5,572 nucleotides of DNA from an uncultured Lachnospiraceae bacterium. Lineage in GTDB: Bacteria; Bacillota; Clostridia; Lachnospirales; Lachnospiraceae. The stretch covers positions 1 through 5,572 of the forward strand of contig CACZSE010000322.1 in assembly GCA_902783735.1 (NCBI GenBank), read 5' to 3'. The first letter of the stretch is position 1. Each line of letters starts with the position of its first letter. The notes beneath the pieces were generated by a model. It searched no databases, was not told where the DNA came from, and saw nothing but the letters and a program-made list of their open reading frames with translations. Made by a program: the position numbers and the translations under genes. Shown one piece after another: positions 1-5,572 of the stretch.

Positions 1-381
1 ACCCTGGTTGATCTCGATATTGTTTTCAGATGATTCACCTTCCGAAAGGCTGTTATCCGAAACTGTTGAGATCACTGCTTCATTATCTGAAACAGTCTCC
101 TGTGCTTCATTGTCCGAAACAGTCTCATCTGCCTCATTGTCTGAAACAGTTACGTCTGTTTCTTCCGGCTTTGTCTCTTCTTCCTGAGAAACTGCCGGTG
201 TCTCATCTGCCGTATCGACGTCATCCTGAACAGTCGTATTGGCATCAGAAACTTCTTCTGCAGCATTTTCCACGCCTGCTTCTGCCGCAAATGTCATGAC
301 CGGCAGCTGCGTAAACGTAAGCAAAAACATGAGAACAATGCTGAGAACCCTGTTTAGTGTGGCTCTTTTTCTTTTACTCAT
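1..381 (-). CDS. Secreted protein with TVSDN repeats, N-terminal part (runs off left edge)
   Basis: The reading frame is open from the ATG at 381 to the window edge (127 codons, no stop), so only the N-terminus is present. Residues 1-11 are basic (MSKRKRATLNR), residues 12-29 are hydrophobic, and a TFA-A site near residues 30-33 fits signal peptidase I, so the protein should be exported. The mature part is acidic and Glu/Asp/Thr/Ser-rich with no predicted fold. From residue 78 to 110 it carries TVSDN four times, at a spacing of 9-10 residues. Such stretches are common as linkers after the signal peptide of large surface proteins in Lachnospiraceae (family knowledge); the functional domain would lie outside the window. 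A purine-rich sequence (GGAAAAGG) ends 2 bases before the ATG and another (GGAAAGGG) ends 12 bases before it, so neither is ideally spaced. An in-frame TTG at 393 is a less likely alternative start. A promoter with an upstream palindrome lies at 456-501. Confidence 0.85.
   Translation of the reverse strand, partial: MSKRKRATLNRVLSIVLMFLLTFTQLPVMTFAAEAGVENAAEEVSDANTTVQDDVDTADETPAVSQEEETKPEETDVTVSDNEADETVSDNEAQETVSDNEAVISTVSDNSLSEGESSENNIEINQG
52..150 (-). repeat. Four imperfect tandem repeats encoding TVSDN units
   Basis: Within the secreted protein, residues 78-110 read as TVSDNEADE, TVSDNEAQE, TVSDNEAVIS and TVSDN. At DNA level this is a 27-bp period with a 3-bp insertion in the third unit. 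Synonymous differences between units (TCA/TCG, GAC/GAT, GAG/GAA) show that the peptide is preserved while the DNA has drifted, so selection acts on the protein. The role is probably that of a flexible spacer near the cell wall; this is inferred. Confidence 0.85.
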
Positions 382-455: not shown

Positions 456-484
456 ATTGTAAATAACCCCTGTCCCAAAGTATA
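456..484 (-). promoter_or_regulatory. Candidate promoter of the secreted repeat protein
   Basis: On the minus strand a -10 hexamer TACAAT (456-461, five of six to consensus) lies 17 bases downstream of a poor -35 hexamer TATACT (479-484). The -35 directly abuts the palindromic element. A weak -35 beside an operator-like palindrome is typical of activator-dependent promoters. The predicted transcript would start near 449, giving a leader of about 70 bases before the ATG at 381. The assignment rests on sequence only and is helped by the parallel arrangement in front of the regulator gene. Confidence 0.45.
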
Positions 485-515
485 GTACCCTTATGGGTAC
501 TTTGCATGTTTTTTA
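484..515 (-). promoter_or_regulatory. Palindromic element copy 1, candidate operator
   Basis: Positions 484-501 form the perfect inverted repeat AGTACCC-TTAT-GGGTACT, followed on the plus strand by a run of six T (509-514). The whole 484-515 block matches 3238-3269 at 29 of 32 positions, with no gaps and in the same orientation. Read on the minus strand, the direction of the gene it precedes, an A-tract lies upstream, then the palindrome, then the promoter. An A-tract there could act as an UP element or part of the site. The likely ligand is the MalT-like regulator encoded next door; this is inferred from position. A terminator reading for the plus strand was considered, but no plus-strand gene lies upstream. 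Confidence 0.6.
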
Positions 516-533
516 ATCCTTCGGTTTCTAATT

Positions 534-797
534 TTATTCTCCAAAGACTCTGGATCTTTGAAGCTCGGCAATGAAATCACCGTAGTCTTCAACGAACTGT
601 CCCAGCCTTAAGCCTGCACTTATCTCATCTCCGTCAAGCTCAAGCGAGACCTTCTTTACAAGATCCTCATCTGAAACTCCCGACTCCATGAGTTTAGCGA
701 TAAACTCATCATCCGTCTCTACCTTTTTTGTCATTCCGTTAAGTTCCAGCAATATTCCGTTCTCCCTGCTGATCCTTACATCAGATTTCCACTTCAT
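534..797 (-). CDS. Small 87-residue acidic protein of unknown function
   Basis: I do not recognise this family. The ATG at 797 is chosen because an excellent GGAGGG (805-810) sits 7 bases upstream; a longer frame starting at TTG 812 would use that Shine-Dalgarno sequence as codons. The product has no signal peptide, membrane segment or cysteine, so it should be cytosolic. It starts with an apparent beta hairpin (VRISRENGILLELNGMTKKV), followed by two similar short helical stretches, FIAKLMES (32-39) and FIAELQRS (75-82), around an acidic middle. The gene begins 18 bases after the stop of the regulator, on the same strand, with no terminator between them, so the two are almost certainly co-transcribed. 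A role as accessory or modulator of the regulator is a guess from context only. No clear hairpin terminator is seen after its TAA. Confidence 0.75.
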   Translation of the reverse strand: MKWKSDVRISRENGILLELNGMTKKVETDDEFIAKLMESGVSDEDLVKKVSLELDGDEISAGLRLGQFVEDYGDFIAELQRSRVFGE

Positions 798-815: not shown

Positions 816-3188
816 TTACCCGCGATGCACCAGTCCCAACTGAACGGCTTTTCTCTCCGCTTCAGCCCTGCTTTTAACACCTAGTTTTTTATATATATTT
901 CTGTTGTGTTTTTTTAATCCGTCATATGTAATGTCCAGTTCTTCGCAGATCTCATCAGTGGATCTGCCATCGCATAACATGGCAAGTACCTGTGCCTCTC
1001 TTTTTGTGAACTGAACGACTTCCTTTGGAATAAATTTGAGATAGTCGGGGAAGCACAGTGCGATCTCCTGACACTCTTTGTAAACCGTATTCAAAAATTC
1101 ACCGTAAGCCGATGTTACCTTTTCATCGTTCATGACCTGTTTTAAGAGCGGTAAAACAGCGGCGCCTTCCAGTGAGATCGTTCTGACAAAATGATACTCA
1201 CATGACAATCCTATACCGGCAATAAGATGTTCCTTCCAATGGTCATCGCCCATTCTGAACAGTATGACAGCCTTAAGGATATCGTTTTCCATCTTATAGA
1301 AGGTTCTTTCGTAGGTCTTTATGTACCCATCCATGAAACATGCAAGATCAAACGCTTCTTCCAAACGATTCTCGGATATGAGGCAGCGTATCTTTATCAT
1401 CTGTCTGTATCTGTCCGAGATGCTGAACGATACCCTTGCTTCCGGAGTCTTTTCTATATAATCCTTTATATCGCTGCCAAAGCCGCCGTATAAAGCAATC
1501 CATGTTCCCATGGCTTTAATATTCGGCTCAAGGTGTCTGGCTTCTTCTTTTGAAGCTTTTTCGCAAAACGTTTCATATACCCTTTTTGCCGAAGGCAGCT
1601 GTCCCTCCACAAGATGCTGTCTGACCTGAATGCCTGTAGATACAAAGCACATCTCGATCTTTCCGCCGTGAGCGGCAGCCTCATAGCCGTCATTACACCT
1701 GGTTAGGACTTCATATGCCGACATCGTTGCTTTTTCAAATCCGCTTTCGGCTAAGGATAATGTAACAAGTCCGTTTCCGAATTTTCCAAGGATGACTTCC
1801 AGGGGTTTACCCATGAATTTTGCTATCTGAGTATCGTTTTTAGACCATTCGCTGAAGTCAAGTCCCCCGTTCATGATAGAGGGTATATTTCCCGTTGCAC
1901 CAAACTCCGGAAGTACGATATCGCCTTTTCTTACCAGCGCAAATACATCCTTCATGATCCTCAAGATACCCTTGGTCCCTCTGTGAGGTAATGCTATATC
2001 AAGATATGCCAGACGGGTTCTCGCTTCTCTGCGTCGTTCTTTTGAGTTATTGGTATCCTTGTAGTACTCCACGAGGTATTTATACCATTCCTCGGATTTT
2101 TCCGGCATAAGTATCAGATCGTAAAGCATGCTCATGCCGGCTGTCAGAACCGGAAGCTCCTTAAGTTCTTCTTCCGGAATGGCAAAGTAGTAGTCCTTGG
2201 TCTCCACATAATGACCGACTCCCGGGTGTGTGTTGACATTCATGATAAGAAGTTCTTTTACCCTTTGAGTCGCCCCTGCCTTTTTATAATATTTTAAGGC
2301 TAACGCAATATCTCCCTTAATTTCATAGAAGTTTGCGGCTCTTCTGAAATTCTCTTCAACTTCCTCTTTTGACCACAGCTGGTCCTGTTTCCAAATGTAG
2401 AATCCCTTCACTTCGGGACGTAATGAATAATACCCCCCGCTGTGATATTTGATCTGATTCATTTTTTCATAACAATACTCTATGACACGGCCTGTGTTTC
2501 TGTCTCCCGTCAGATACTCGGCCATTTCAACATTAAAACTATCGTACTGACATATACTCAGCGCAAAATGAACGAATTCGTCCGACCACTGCTCAAAAAC
2601 AAAGCTGTCCCAAAGACGATAGATATCCTGCCATACGGCAGCCCTGATATCTTCAGAATATCTTTCACCGTCACGCATCCTTTCCACATAACAGTGAAGT
2701 GCGCAAACGTATCCCCCTGACGCTTCCGTAACGGGAGCGATATCCTGCGGATCAAGTTCCACTCCTCTTTCTTGAAAATACTCATCTACTTCTTTGGGTC
2801 CAAAAGTAAAATCCGATTCCTGGACTCGTACGAAACCGAGGTCCATATCTTCTCCCGCGAGATATTTGGGAACCCCGCCTCTTGTGAGCATAACTACCTG
2901 TATGCCTCTTGTTCTGAGCAGTTTTCTTAAATATCTGATGGATTCCGGTTCGGAAAGCCACTGCATGTCTTCTATGATAACGGTGCTTGCCCTGAATGAT
3001 TCCGGATCGGGCATCTCGGTAATATTTCCGTCTTTACAATAAAGCGTCAGCGGATTTTTCCGTCTGTAGAAATTCTCTGCTGCCGCGCTCTTTCCCCATC
3101 CGTTGGCTGCGGTCATAATGACCGGAGCATAAAATTCCTCGGCTTTCTTAAGTTTTTCATACACTTTTGGAAGTTTAATATATTTCAT
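816..3188 (-). CDS. MalT-like (LAL family) LuxR-type transcriptional regulator
   Basis: This 790-residue protein has the architecture of large ATP-binding LuxR regulators: an N-terminal NTPase, a long helical repeat region and a C-terminal DNA-binding domain. The Walker A motif is AANGWGKS (27-34), with a Walker B-like strand TVIIED (69-74) and the LTRGGVPKYL segment (101-110) typical of the family after the next strand. Residues of about 270-700 are helix-rich and TPR-like, the presumed inducer-sensing part. Residues 727-790 are a clear LuxR helix-turn-helix, starting FTKREAQVLAMLCDG and containing HNRNIYKKLGVKSRAEA. Family members are typically ATP- and ligand-dependent activators; the ligand here cannot be read from sequence. 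The start is well fixed: an in-frame TGA lies 18 bases upstream of the ATG, and the next Met is residue 25. The Shine-Dalgarno sequence is weak (GGGACGG, 3194-3200), and the predicted leader is only about 14 bases. The gene is divergent from the lipoprotein gene and lies beside a copy of the palindromic element, suggesting autoregulation. Confidence 0.92.
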   Translation of the reverse strand: MKYIKLPKVYEKLKKAEEFYAPVIMTAANGWGKSAAAENFYRRKNPLTLYCKDGNITEMPDPESFRASTVIIEDMQWLSEPESIRYLRKLLRTRGIQVVMLTRGGVPKYLAGEDMDLGFVRVQESDFTFGPKEVDEYFQERGVELDPQDIAPVTEASGGYVCALHCYVERMRDGERYSEDIRAAVWQDIYRLWDSFVFEQWSDEFVHFALSICQYDSFNVEMAEYLTGDRNTGRVIEYCYEKMNQIKYHSGGYYSLRPEVKGFYIWKQDQLWSKEEVEENFRRAANFYEIKGDIALALKYYKKAGATQRVKELLIMNVNTHPGVGHYVETKDYYFAIPEEELKELPVLTAGMSMLYDLILMPEKSEEWYKYLVEYYKDTNNSKERRREARTRLAYLDIALPHRGTKGILRIMKDVFALVRKGDIVLPEFGATGNIPSIMNGGLDFSEWSKNDTQIAKFMGKPLEVILGKFGNGLVTLSLAESGFEKATMSAYEVLTRCNDGYEAAAHGGKIEMCFVSTGIQVRQHLVEGQLPSAKRVYETFCEKASKEEARHLEPNIKAMGTWIALYGGFGSDIKDYIEKTPEARVSFSISDRYRQMIKIRCLISENRLEEAFDLACFMDGYIKTYERTFYKMENDILKAVILFRMGDDHWKEHLIAGIGLSCEYHFVRTISLEGAAVLPLLKQVMNDEKVTSAYGEFLNTVYKECQEIALCFPDYLKFIPKEVVQFTKREAQVLAMLCDGRSTDEICEELDITYDGLKKHNRNIYKKLGVKSRAEAERKAVQLGLVHRG

Positions 3189-3208: not shown

Positions 3209-3238
3209 ATTATATACTGTATGGTTTCTTAACGTGAA
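3209..3238 (-). promoter_or_regulatory. Candidate promoter of the regulator operon
   Basis: On the minus strand a perfect TATAAT (3209-3214) lies 18 bases downstream of a weak -35 hexamer TTCACG (3233-3238). This -35 overlaps the end of the palindromic element. Transcription would start near 3202. The distance from the conserved GGGTAC half-site to the -10 is 24 bases here and 23 in front of the secreted repeat protein, so the two promoters share a layout as well as a motif. Confidence 0.55.
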
Positions 3239-3269
3239 GTACCCTTATGGCTACTTTACCTGTTTTTTA
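3238..3269 (-). promoter_or_regulatory. Palindromic element copy 2, candidate operator
   Basis: The inverted repeat AAGTACCC-TTAT-GGCTACTT (3237-3256) has one mismatch between its arms. A run of six T (3263-3268 on the plus strand) follows, as in copy 1. The three differences from copy 1 fall in one palindrome base and two bases of the spacer between palindrome and T-run. It sits in the divergent region between regulator and lipoprotein genes, directly against the -35 of the regulator promoter. Binding by the regulator itself is the simplest hypothesis. On the plus strand a TTTACC (3255-3260) and TATAAC (3280-3285) could form a weak promoter toward the lipoprotein, but the 19-base spacing is long. 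Confidence 0.6.
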
Positions 3270-4528: not shown

Positions 4529-5572
4529 TCAACCCGCCTTTTCAATGATCAGAGTGATATTTTCATGCGGTGGCATGCTTACTTGCGTATCCATCTTATC
4601 AACCGCGACTTCACGCAACTCACCCGTCCAGACATTCTTTATCCTGACAGTTTTAACATTCTTCAATTCTTCGGGGAAAAGATCTCCCAGTTTTTCAATG
4701 ACCGTATTACGATCGATCCGTATATTTTCATTTGCAGTCTCATCTGACAGATTATAAACCGCAAGTGCCAGTCTTCCACCAAATAAAGGCTTTGCAAGAA
4801 CATCTATGCGATCATTGTTTCTTATATATTCCTTCGAAGGATCTTCACAGTCATATGTGGTCCAGATCCGCTTACCCTGAATCCCGAGTCTGTCCTGATC
4901 TATGTCGATCAGATCCCTGTTTGCAATGATACTGTATATTTTGTCGCCTTTTTTTACTCTTCTTAAATCCATTCCAAGCATAAGAGGGACGTTCATCATG
5001 CACCACATTGACATATGGCTGGCATTCATGGCATCTGTCAGGCCGTTCATACCGATCACCAGCATATCAGGATCGTTCCATCCCCTGCCGATTCCCGCGA
5101 ACTCATCCATAATGACGCATTTATTGTACTGCGATGTGATACTATTGGTATACTCATCCGACCATTTGGCGGTACCGGGGTCTCCCTCAGCCGATCCGAC
5201 ATCGAATGTGATGTCATTTAATATCCTCCAGCTGTCACCTACCTTGTATCCCCAGTCAGAGGGCATTGTCTTACCCCATTCGCATATTGAAAACGCTATA
5301 TCCTTATCGGGCATCTCTTCACGAAGCGCCTCTAATACAGCCGCATATGAGGTCAGAGTATTCTCCTGACGACGGTGATTCATCAGTCTTATCCTGTTTT
5401 TCCCTTTGTGAAGCCTGATCGGAATGTCTTGTGACCATACAAACTCTGTTGAAGAAGCAGTCTCGTTCAAAAGATCATCGTATGTGATATCTCCCGTTGT
5501 ATCTTCTTCACTTCTGATCTGAAGCCATTGTCCGATACCTTCTTCTTTACCGGTCGCATACAAAACCGAGAT
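4529..5572 (-). CDS. GH27 alpha-galactosidase, C-terminal part (5' end outside the window)
   Basis: The frame is open to the right edge, giving 347 visible residues; a TTG at 5563 is internal, not the start. The enzyme should release terminal alpha-linked galactose from plant oligosaccharides or galactomannan. GH27 hallmarks are in order (fragment numbering): FSICEWGK at 94-101, SWRILNDI at 114-121, WNDPDMLVIG at 165-174, a HMSMWCMMNVPLMLGMDL stretch at 186-203, and ANRDLIDIDQD at 217-227. In characterised GH27 enzymes the Asp of the WR...D motif is the acid/base; here it is Asp120 (codon 5213-5215). The nucleophile motif (YxKxD type) should lie upstream and is not visible. Residues 1 to about 64 (VLYATG, IPIRLHKGKNRIRL) look like a beta-sandwich carbohydrate-binding module, placed before the SYAAVLEALREE helix that is part of the barrel. 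So the module appears inserted into the catalytic domain, as in some clostridial relatives. The C-terminal 100 residues form the usual beta domain. Secretion cannot be judged. Confidence 0.93.
   Translation of the reverse strand: MSVLYATGKEEGIGQWLQIRSEEDTTGDITYDDLLNETASSTEFVWSQDIPIRLHKGKNRIRLMNHRRQENTLTSYAAVLEALREEMPDKDIAFSICEWGKTMPSDWGYKVGDSWRILNDITFDVGSAEGDPGTAKWSDEYTNSITSQYNKCVIMDEFAGIGRGWNDPDMLVIGMNGLTDAMNASHMSMWCMMNVPLMLGMDLRRVKKGDKIYSIIANRDLIDIDQDRLGIQGKRIWTTYDCEDPSKEYIRNNDRIDVLAKPLFGGRLALAVYNLSDETANENIRIDRNTVIEKLGDLFPEELKNVKTVRIKNVWTGELREVAVDKMDTQVSMPPHENITLIIEKAG

Follow-up and report, generated by a model that had tools for sequence, protein, structure and literature searches.

The window analysed here is a 5,572-nucleotide (nt) contig of an uncultured Lachnospiraceae bacterium (CACZSE010000322.1, assembly GCA_902783735.1). 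It carries two copies of a palindromic element and, on the minus strand, the gene of a MalT-like LuxR regulator (816-3188). The element is likely the operator of this regulator, which as a predicted dimer would activate its own gene and the gene of a predicted exported protein. An earlier note on this DNA had proposed such an operator. The proposal gained support from sequence comparison: the element co-occurs with close regulator orthologs, its sites stand before the regulator or mostly nearby genes, and the palindrome arms differ with the recognition helix.

The two copies and their predicted promoters

Positions 484-515 and 3238-3269 were identical at 29 of 32 bases, without gaps and in the same orientation. 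This was the top score among the window's direct 32-mer pairs at least 40 nt apart; when 2-base blocks were shuffled 10 times, the maxima were 21-24. Each copy has an 18-bp core with the form of a 7-4-7 inverted repeat. The core of copy 1 (box 1, AGTACCCATAAGGGTACT, 484-501) pairs perfectly, and that of copy 2 (box 2, AGTAGCCATAAGGGTACT, 3238-3255) has a single broken pair. Both copies kept a T6 run (509-514 and 3263-3268). A minus-strand gene follows each: the regulator (ATG at 3188) after copy 2, and an exported-protein open reading frame (ORF; ATG at 381, running off the window) after copy 1. The match, the inverted-repeat core, the T6 run and the position before minus-strand genes, one of them the regulator, had all been claimed in the earlier note and were confirmed.

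Viewed on the minus strand, both copies belong to a longer element, consisting of an A-tract, nCAGGCAA, RGTANCCATARGGGTACT and ATnC, with a -10-like box 21-23 nt on. Because the element reads on this strand, the T6 run is an upstream A-tract. Neither this reading direction nor the -10-like box had been mentioned in the earlier note. The A6 tract of box 1 (509-514, minus strand) lies within the conserved flank AAAAAACATGCAA, and that of box 2 (3263-3268, minus strand) within the flank AAAAAACAGGTAA. The predicted -10 boxes, also on the minus strand, are TACAAT (456-461), beginning 22 nt past box 1, and TATAAT (3209-3214), beginning 23 nt past box 2.

The host assembly has 2.16 Mb in 349 contigs and is 77% complete; the window is contig 322. 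With at most one mismatch, the 18-bp core was found at two places in this genome, as was a reversed control pattern. With at most three mismatches there were 29 places, versus 112 for the control. The core alone was not decisive, therefore sites were sought beside regulator orthologs, and a core match by itself did not count as evidence. Sixteen places with an exact match to the core pattern were taken further. A scan for regulator orthologs gave 14 loci (44-66% identical, one a mere fragment), and 11 of them had a box with at most one mismatch to RGTANCCNNNRGGGTACT.

Seventeen sites from 10 ortholog genomes aligned without gaps over the A-tract, nCAGnCAA, RGTANCCATARGGGTACT and ATnC. A 38-bp sequence-only profile was built from them, to which the window contributed none. 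In the window's own genome, where 150 of 581 first-look candidates were scored, the profile matched 479-514 (minus strand, E 3.2e-10) and 3238-3268 (minus strand, E 6.5e-8). The only other match listed up to E 10 had an E value of 0.095. At the sequence level, this profile is decisive for placing both copies above chance. A genome search for the element had been suggested in the earlier note, with random scatter, a location within coding sequence, or a pattern like that of terminators or repeats named as outcomes that would speak against an operator. The search returned two strong sites, each upstream of a gene, and none of these outcomes. With just two strong copies genome-wide by profile, a repeat element was rejected.

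A -10-like box with at most one mismatch to TATAAT begins 21-23 nt past the element in 21 of the 22 canonical sites. Within a subset of 20 sites, 19 had such a box; 1000 shuffles gave 0.95 on average and never more than 5. The -35 place was poor, with 2-4 mismatches to TTGACA in all 20 sites examined, so that the promoters would be weak without help. The sites thus have the layout of a LuxR-type activator, a fixed site just upstream of the -35 place at near-constant spacing. Such a box, immediately ahead of a predicted promoter whose -35 is poor, favours activation; the earlier note had named no direction of control. Assuming that the transcription start lies 7 nt past the end of the -10 hexamer, the box centre would fall near -44 and the A-tract near -61 to -66, where the alpha subunit of the polymerase could bind.

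The regulator (816-3188, minus strand; 790 amino acids) has the three parts of a MalT-type STAND LuxR protein: an N-terminal P-loop NOD, predicted to be an ATPase, a TPR sensor like MalT domain III, and a C-terminal GerE/LuxR helix-turn-helix (HTH) with the helix TYDGLKKHNRNIYKKL. It scored 78.3 bits against the NCBIfam MalT equivalog NF003420, far below the cut-off of 537. The palindrome would be held by two C-terminal HTH domains acting as a dimer, and contact between the bound regulator and RNA polymerase would substitute for a strong -35. The regulator would raise its own level and probably that of a likely co-transcribed partner of 87 amino acids, and the level of the exported protein would rise once the TPR sensor is triggered. 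Positive feedback would then follow a signal at that sensor.

Element and regulator across genomes

The family survey covered 397 genomes, the window's own included, with a profile cut at E 0.001; only 17 first-look candidates per genome were taken, under stricter filters, and weak sites may be missed. The profile matched in 5 of the 397 genomes. An ortholog at least 58% identical was present in six, and these included all five matched genomes, with no match in the other 391. Three of the five (G151, G206, G347) had given training sites. With training genomes left out, the profile matched in 2 of 3 genomes with the ortholog versus 0 of 391 (Fisher 4e-5). A homolog of the regulator at E 1e-60 was found in 41 of the 397 genomes, about one in ten of those sampled.

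Among the 14 ortholog genomes, 11 had a profile match at E 1 or better; the eleventh, in G108, was weak (E 7.8e-4). G471, whose regulator is 68% identical and which stood outside the training set, had two sites, 57 nt upstream of the regulator and before a lipoprotein gene. The order there is site, regulator, a partner of 89 amino acids, C11 protease, site, lipoprotein. Of the 13 loci in which a canonical site and the regulator are both present, 10 have the regulator downstream of a same-strand site, either immediately or with one to three genes in between; in the remaining three, the site comes after the regulator. Twenty of the 22 canonical sites are on the regulator's contig within ~4 kb, and the L073 and L084 sites are on other contigs. 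Sites before both the regulator's own gene and a candidate target gene were seen in the window, L219 and L068.

The regulator itself is patchy. No close ortholog was found in the 19 same-genus genomes searched, two of which have one that is 27-28% identical. Other genera of the same family do have close orthologs; this distribution may reflect horizontal transfer or loss.

Orthologs with the recognition helix (S/T)Y(D/E)GLKKHN(R/K)NIY have the arms RGTANCC...GGGTACT. The SIG333/G183 regulator is 63% identical and has the helix SYDTVKKYNSRIY. Its three sites, in the same frame of A-tract, flank and -10 box, are TGTCCACCTGGGTGGAAT, TGTCCACCTGGGGGGAAT (before the regulator) and ATTCCACCTGGGTGGACT (on another contig), at L166 3034, L166 9171 and L212 3100. 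G318, with the helix TANGLKKHNYNLY, has the site ATTACACTTGAGTGTAAT ~290 nt upstream of its regulator. GGTTACT replaces GGGTACT in L066 (YAGL) and L067 (YSGL). G379 (YNSLKFHN, 40% identical) has CCTACCCGCGGGGGTAGG ~120 nt upstream of the regulator. In the sequences of several diverged orthologs, then, the frame stays and the palindrome arms differ along with the predicted recognition helix.

A pattern for the frame (A-tract, flank, ATAC, any arms) matched 47 times in 25 genomes, versus 21 for a reversed control. Five or more of the 7 arm pairs were present in eight matches, and the other 39 had at most four, thus most of the matches are chance. An arms-blind scan returned 21 rows versus 1.2 in block shuffles. 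One place appears twice among these rows (L069, L166) and another, L059 13844, has the look of a chance match; most of the rest come from the window or the training set. New arms were seen at three places (SIG333, G318 and G379). When 45 regulator upstream regions were scanned, a palindrome with a -10 box was found in 13 versus 0.8 expected, or in 12 of 42 after removal of duplicates (three genomes were in twice). At three of these places the upstream distance to the regulator exceeds 200 nt, and the genes served may be different ones.

These data may point to a self-activating switch in a little-studied Lachnospiraceae branch of MalT-like proteins, in which the frame is fixed, the arms are swapped together with the helix, and the partner controls the regulator. 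Such a natural lock-and-key series is a tentative suggestion. The arm and helix differences between orthologs provide pairs for testing LuxR-type specificity.

Arguments against the proposed operator and rival explanations

Several observations weigh against an operator of the regulator. The mismatched 18-bp core is not commoner than its reversed control in the host genome, in relatives or in ortholog genomes. The 58% identity cut was picked after the matches were known. At a cut of 50%, 5 of 8 genomes were matched, and among genomes with a homolog at E 1e-60, 5 of 41; the canonical box is therefore confined to close orthologs. Profile matches in 10 of the 14 ortholog genomes hold by construction, because those 10 gave the training sites. 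G107, G110 and G111 (3 of 14) had no profile match at E 1; of these, G110 corresponds to the SIG333 variant, a matrix gave a degenerate site in G107, and the G111 gene was matched as a fragment alone. In G360 and G467 (51-53% identical), the 16-17 kb surrounding the regulator yielded no box, despite the matching helix YDGLKKHNKNIY (YDGLKKHNKN). The box of G401/L169 (46% identical) also has a terminator-like look from its T-run, few variant genomes stand behind the link of helix and arms, and at the regulator's own promoter a partial -35, TTCACG (4 of 6 bases), adjoins the box.

That partial -35 would suit a repressor, with the regulator binding the element and blocking its own promoter and that of the exported-protein gene until a signal releases it. 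Repressive autoregulation is common among bacterial regulators, and a box beside a promoter could hinder the polymerase. The box, however, sits upstream of the -35 place, clear of the -10 box and the start, and promoters with so poor a -35 would be weak unaided. The relatives by architecture that have been characterised are activators: AlkS (PMC8784404) and MalT, which the abstract of a further paper calls a positive regulator. We consider repression unlikely. It is still less probable that the element belongs to another DNA-binding protein, such as another LuxR-type response regulator, with the MalT-like regulator as a mere target. Such an owner would fit the 18 of 22 canonical sites (one a contig-end case) that stand directly before non-regulator genes, and NarL shares the half-site TACCC/GGGTA. 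Against it, the presence of the element tracks close orthologs of the MalT-like regulator, nearly all canonical sites lie near this regulator's gene, and differences in its recognition helix are accompanied by differences in the arms.

The palindrome could also act in RNA, as a hairpin, terminator or leader structure. Copy 1 folds well as plus-strand RNA (-10.5 kcal/mol), and in L067 and L169 the box comes right after the regulator stop and is followed by a T-run, where it may double as a terminator. Yet no plus-strand gene reaches copy 1, copy 2 folds weakly, no terminator-like site was present around either copy, and the window had no Rfam family at gathering score. The conservation is one of sequence, not of pairing: in 16 of 22 sites, a G or an A stands at position 5 and does not pair with the G at position 14. 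The box is also upstream of the predicted -10. An RNA role thus appears very improbable. Intrinsic terminators, taken as a hairpin followed immediately by a T-run after a gene, were searched for around both window copies, and none was found. In L067 (6145-6200), two inverted box copies lie right after the regulator stop. By eye, they could pair into a long hairpin that carries a T-run, so that the box may be part of a terminator there.

Known systems and neighbouring genes

An activating operator of the regulator resembles the AlkS system in layout. AlkS, a LuxR/MalT family activator of Pseudomonas putida GPo1, has inverted-repeat operators before its target promoter and its own promoter and gives positive feedback (PMC8784404). 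PalkB and PalkS2 share with the present case a MalT-family regulator and an inverted repeat before own and target promoters, and the window has this layout as sequence sites. AlkS comes from another bacterial class and has alkane genes as targets, whereas activation and feedback are predicted here; the likeness is one of layout.

NarL, as described in PMC4549865, binds as a LuxR/FixJ-type HTH dimer to a 7-2-7 inverted repeat with the half-site TACCC...GGGTA (engineered site TACCCCTAAAGGGGTA), and its site at napF lies at -40 to -49. The element has the same half-site, but the gap between TACCC and GGGTA is 4 bp instead of 6 bp, so it is no 7-2-7 repeat. NarL is a response regulator, in contrast to the STAND-type protein of the window.

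The classical MalT box is GGA-type, non-palindromic and present in several copies. The 22 sites are a single palindrome, RGTANCCNNNRGGGTACT, and the earlier claim that the element is unlike the classical MalT box holds against this consensus. Escherichia coli malPp800 and pulAp have four MalT sites each (PMC10427625), versus one palindromic box per promoter here, and the window regulator is far below the MalT cut-off. MalT is activated via opening of its NOD, according to PMC4381067 and PMC10427625. Among the matches listed, the literature on such regulators described no operator for any homolog of the window regulator, and that on MalT-like/LuxR operators (Lachnospiraceae, Firmicutes) or on GGGTACT with LuxR did not describe the element. 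A paper containing GGGTACT was set aside, as the letters occur in primers only.

A defined box allows candidate target genes to be named directly. Behind box 1 is a predicted exported protein (1-381, minus strand) with a hydrophobic N-terminal segment and acidic repeats, cut by the window end. The first gene downstream of the 22 canonical sites is the regulator in four cases, a protein with a lipobox or hydrophobic N-terminus in 15, and a LURP-one-like protein in two; in the last, L178, it falls past the contig end. The 15 are predicted lipoproteins, membrane-anchored or secreted proteins and include two clostripain-type proteases. In the LURP-one-like pair, L057 is below the Pfam cut-off and L061 was assigned by likeness to L057. 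Behind the L060 site at 10398, a lipoprotein ORF at +70 had been skipped by the greedy gene caller for a longer opposite-strand ORF. The lipoproteins behind the L059, L063, L064, L068 and L073 sites share the motif LTFxDLQDxYxxLxDxYNxVExLYxNDxI; the three scanned had no Pfam match above cut-off.

The 87-residue partner (534-797, minus strand; MKWK...FRLAQFVxDYG) begins 18 nt after the regulator and is of unknown fold. A partner-like ORF follows the regulator in 11 of 32 locus rows (one genome counted twice) and also in L219. No convincing sequence relative was found in Pfam or the PDB; a PqqD-like fold is our guess, with no support from any search. In L170 (G379), where the regulator is 40% identical, the genes after regulator and partner encode another MalT-like protein (902 amino acids), an AAA-type ATPase and a contractile-tail-sheath-like protein. 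This suggests that a relative of the switch serves a contractile-injection-like cluster there, the sheath likeness being judged by eye. At the other end of the window, 4529-5572 (minus strand) encodes the C-terminal part of an alpha-galactosidase (Melibiase_2, Melibiase_C), beside a 133-residue ORF without a family.
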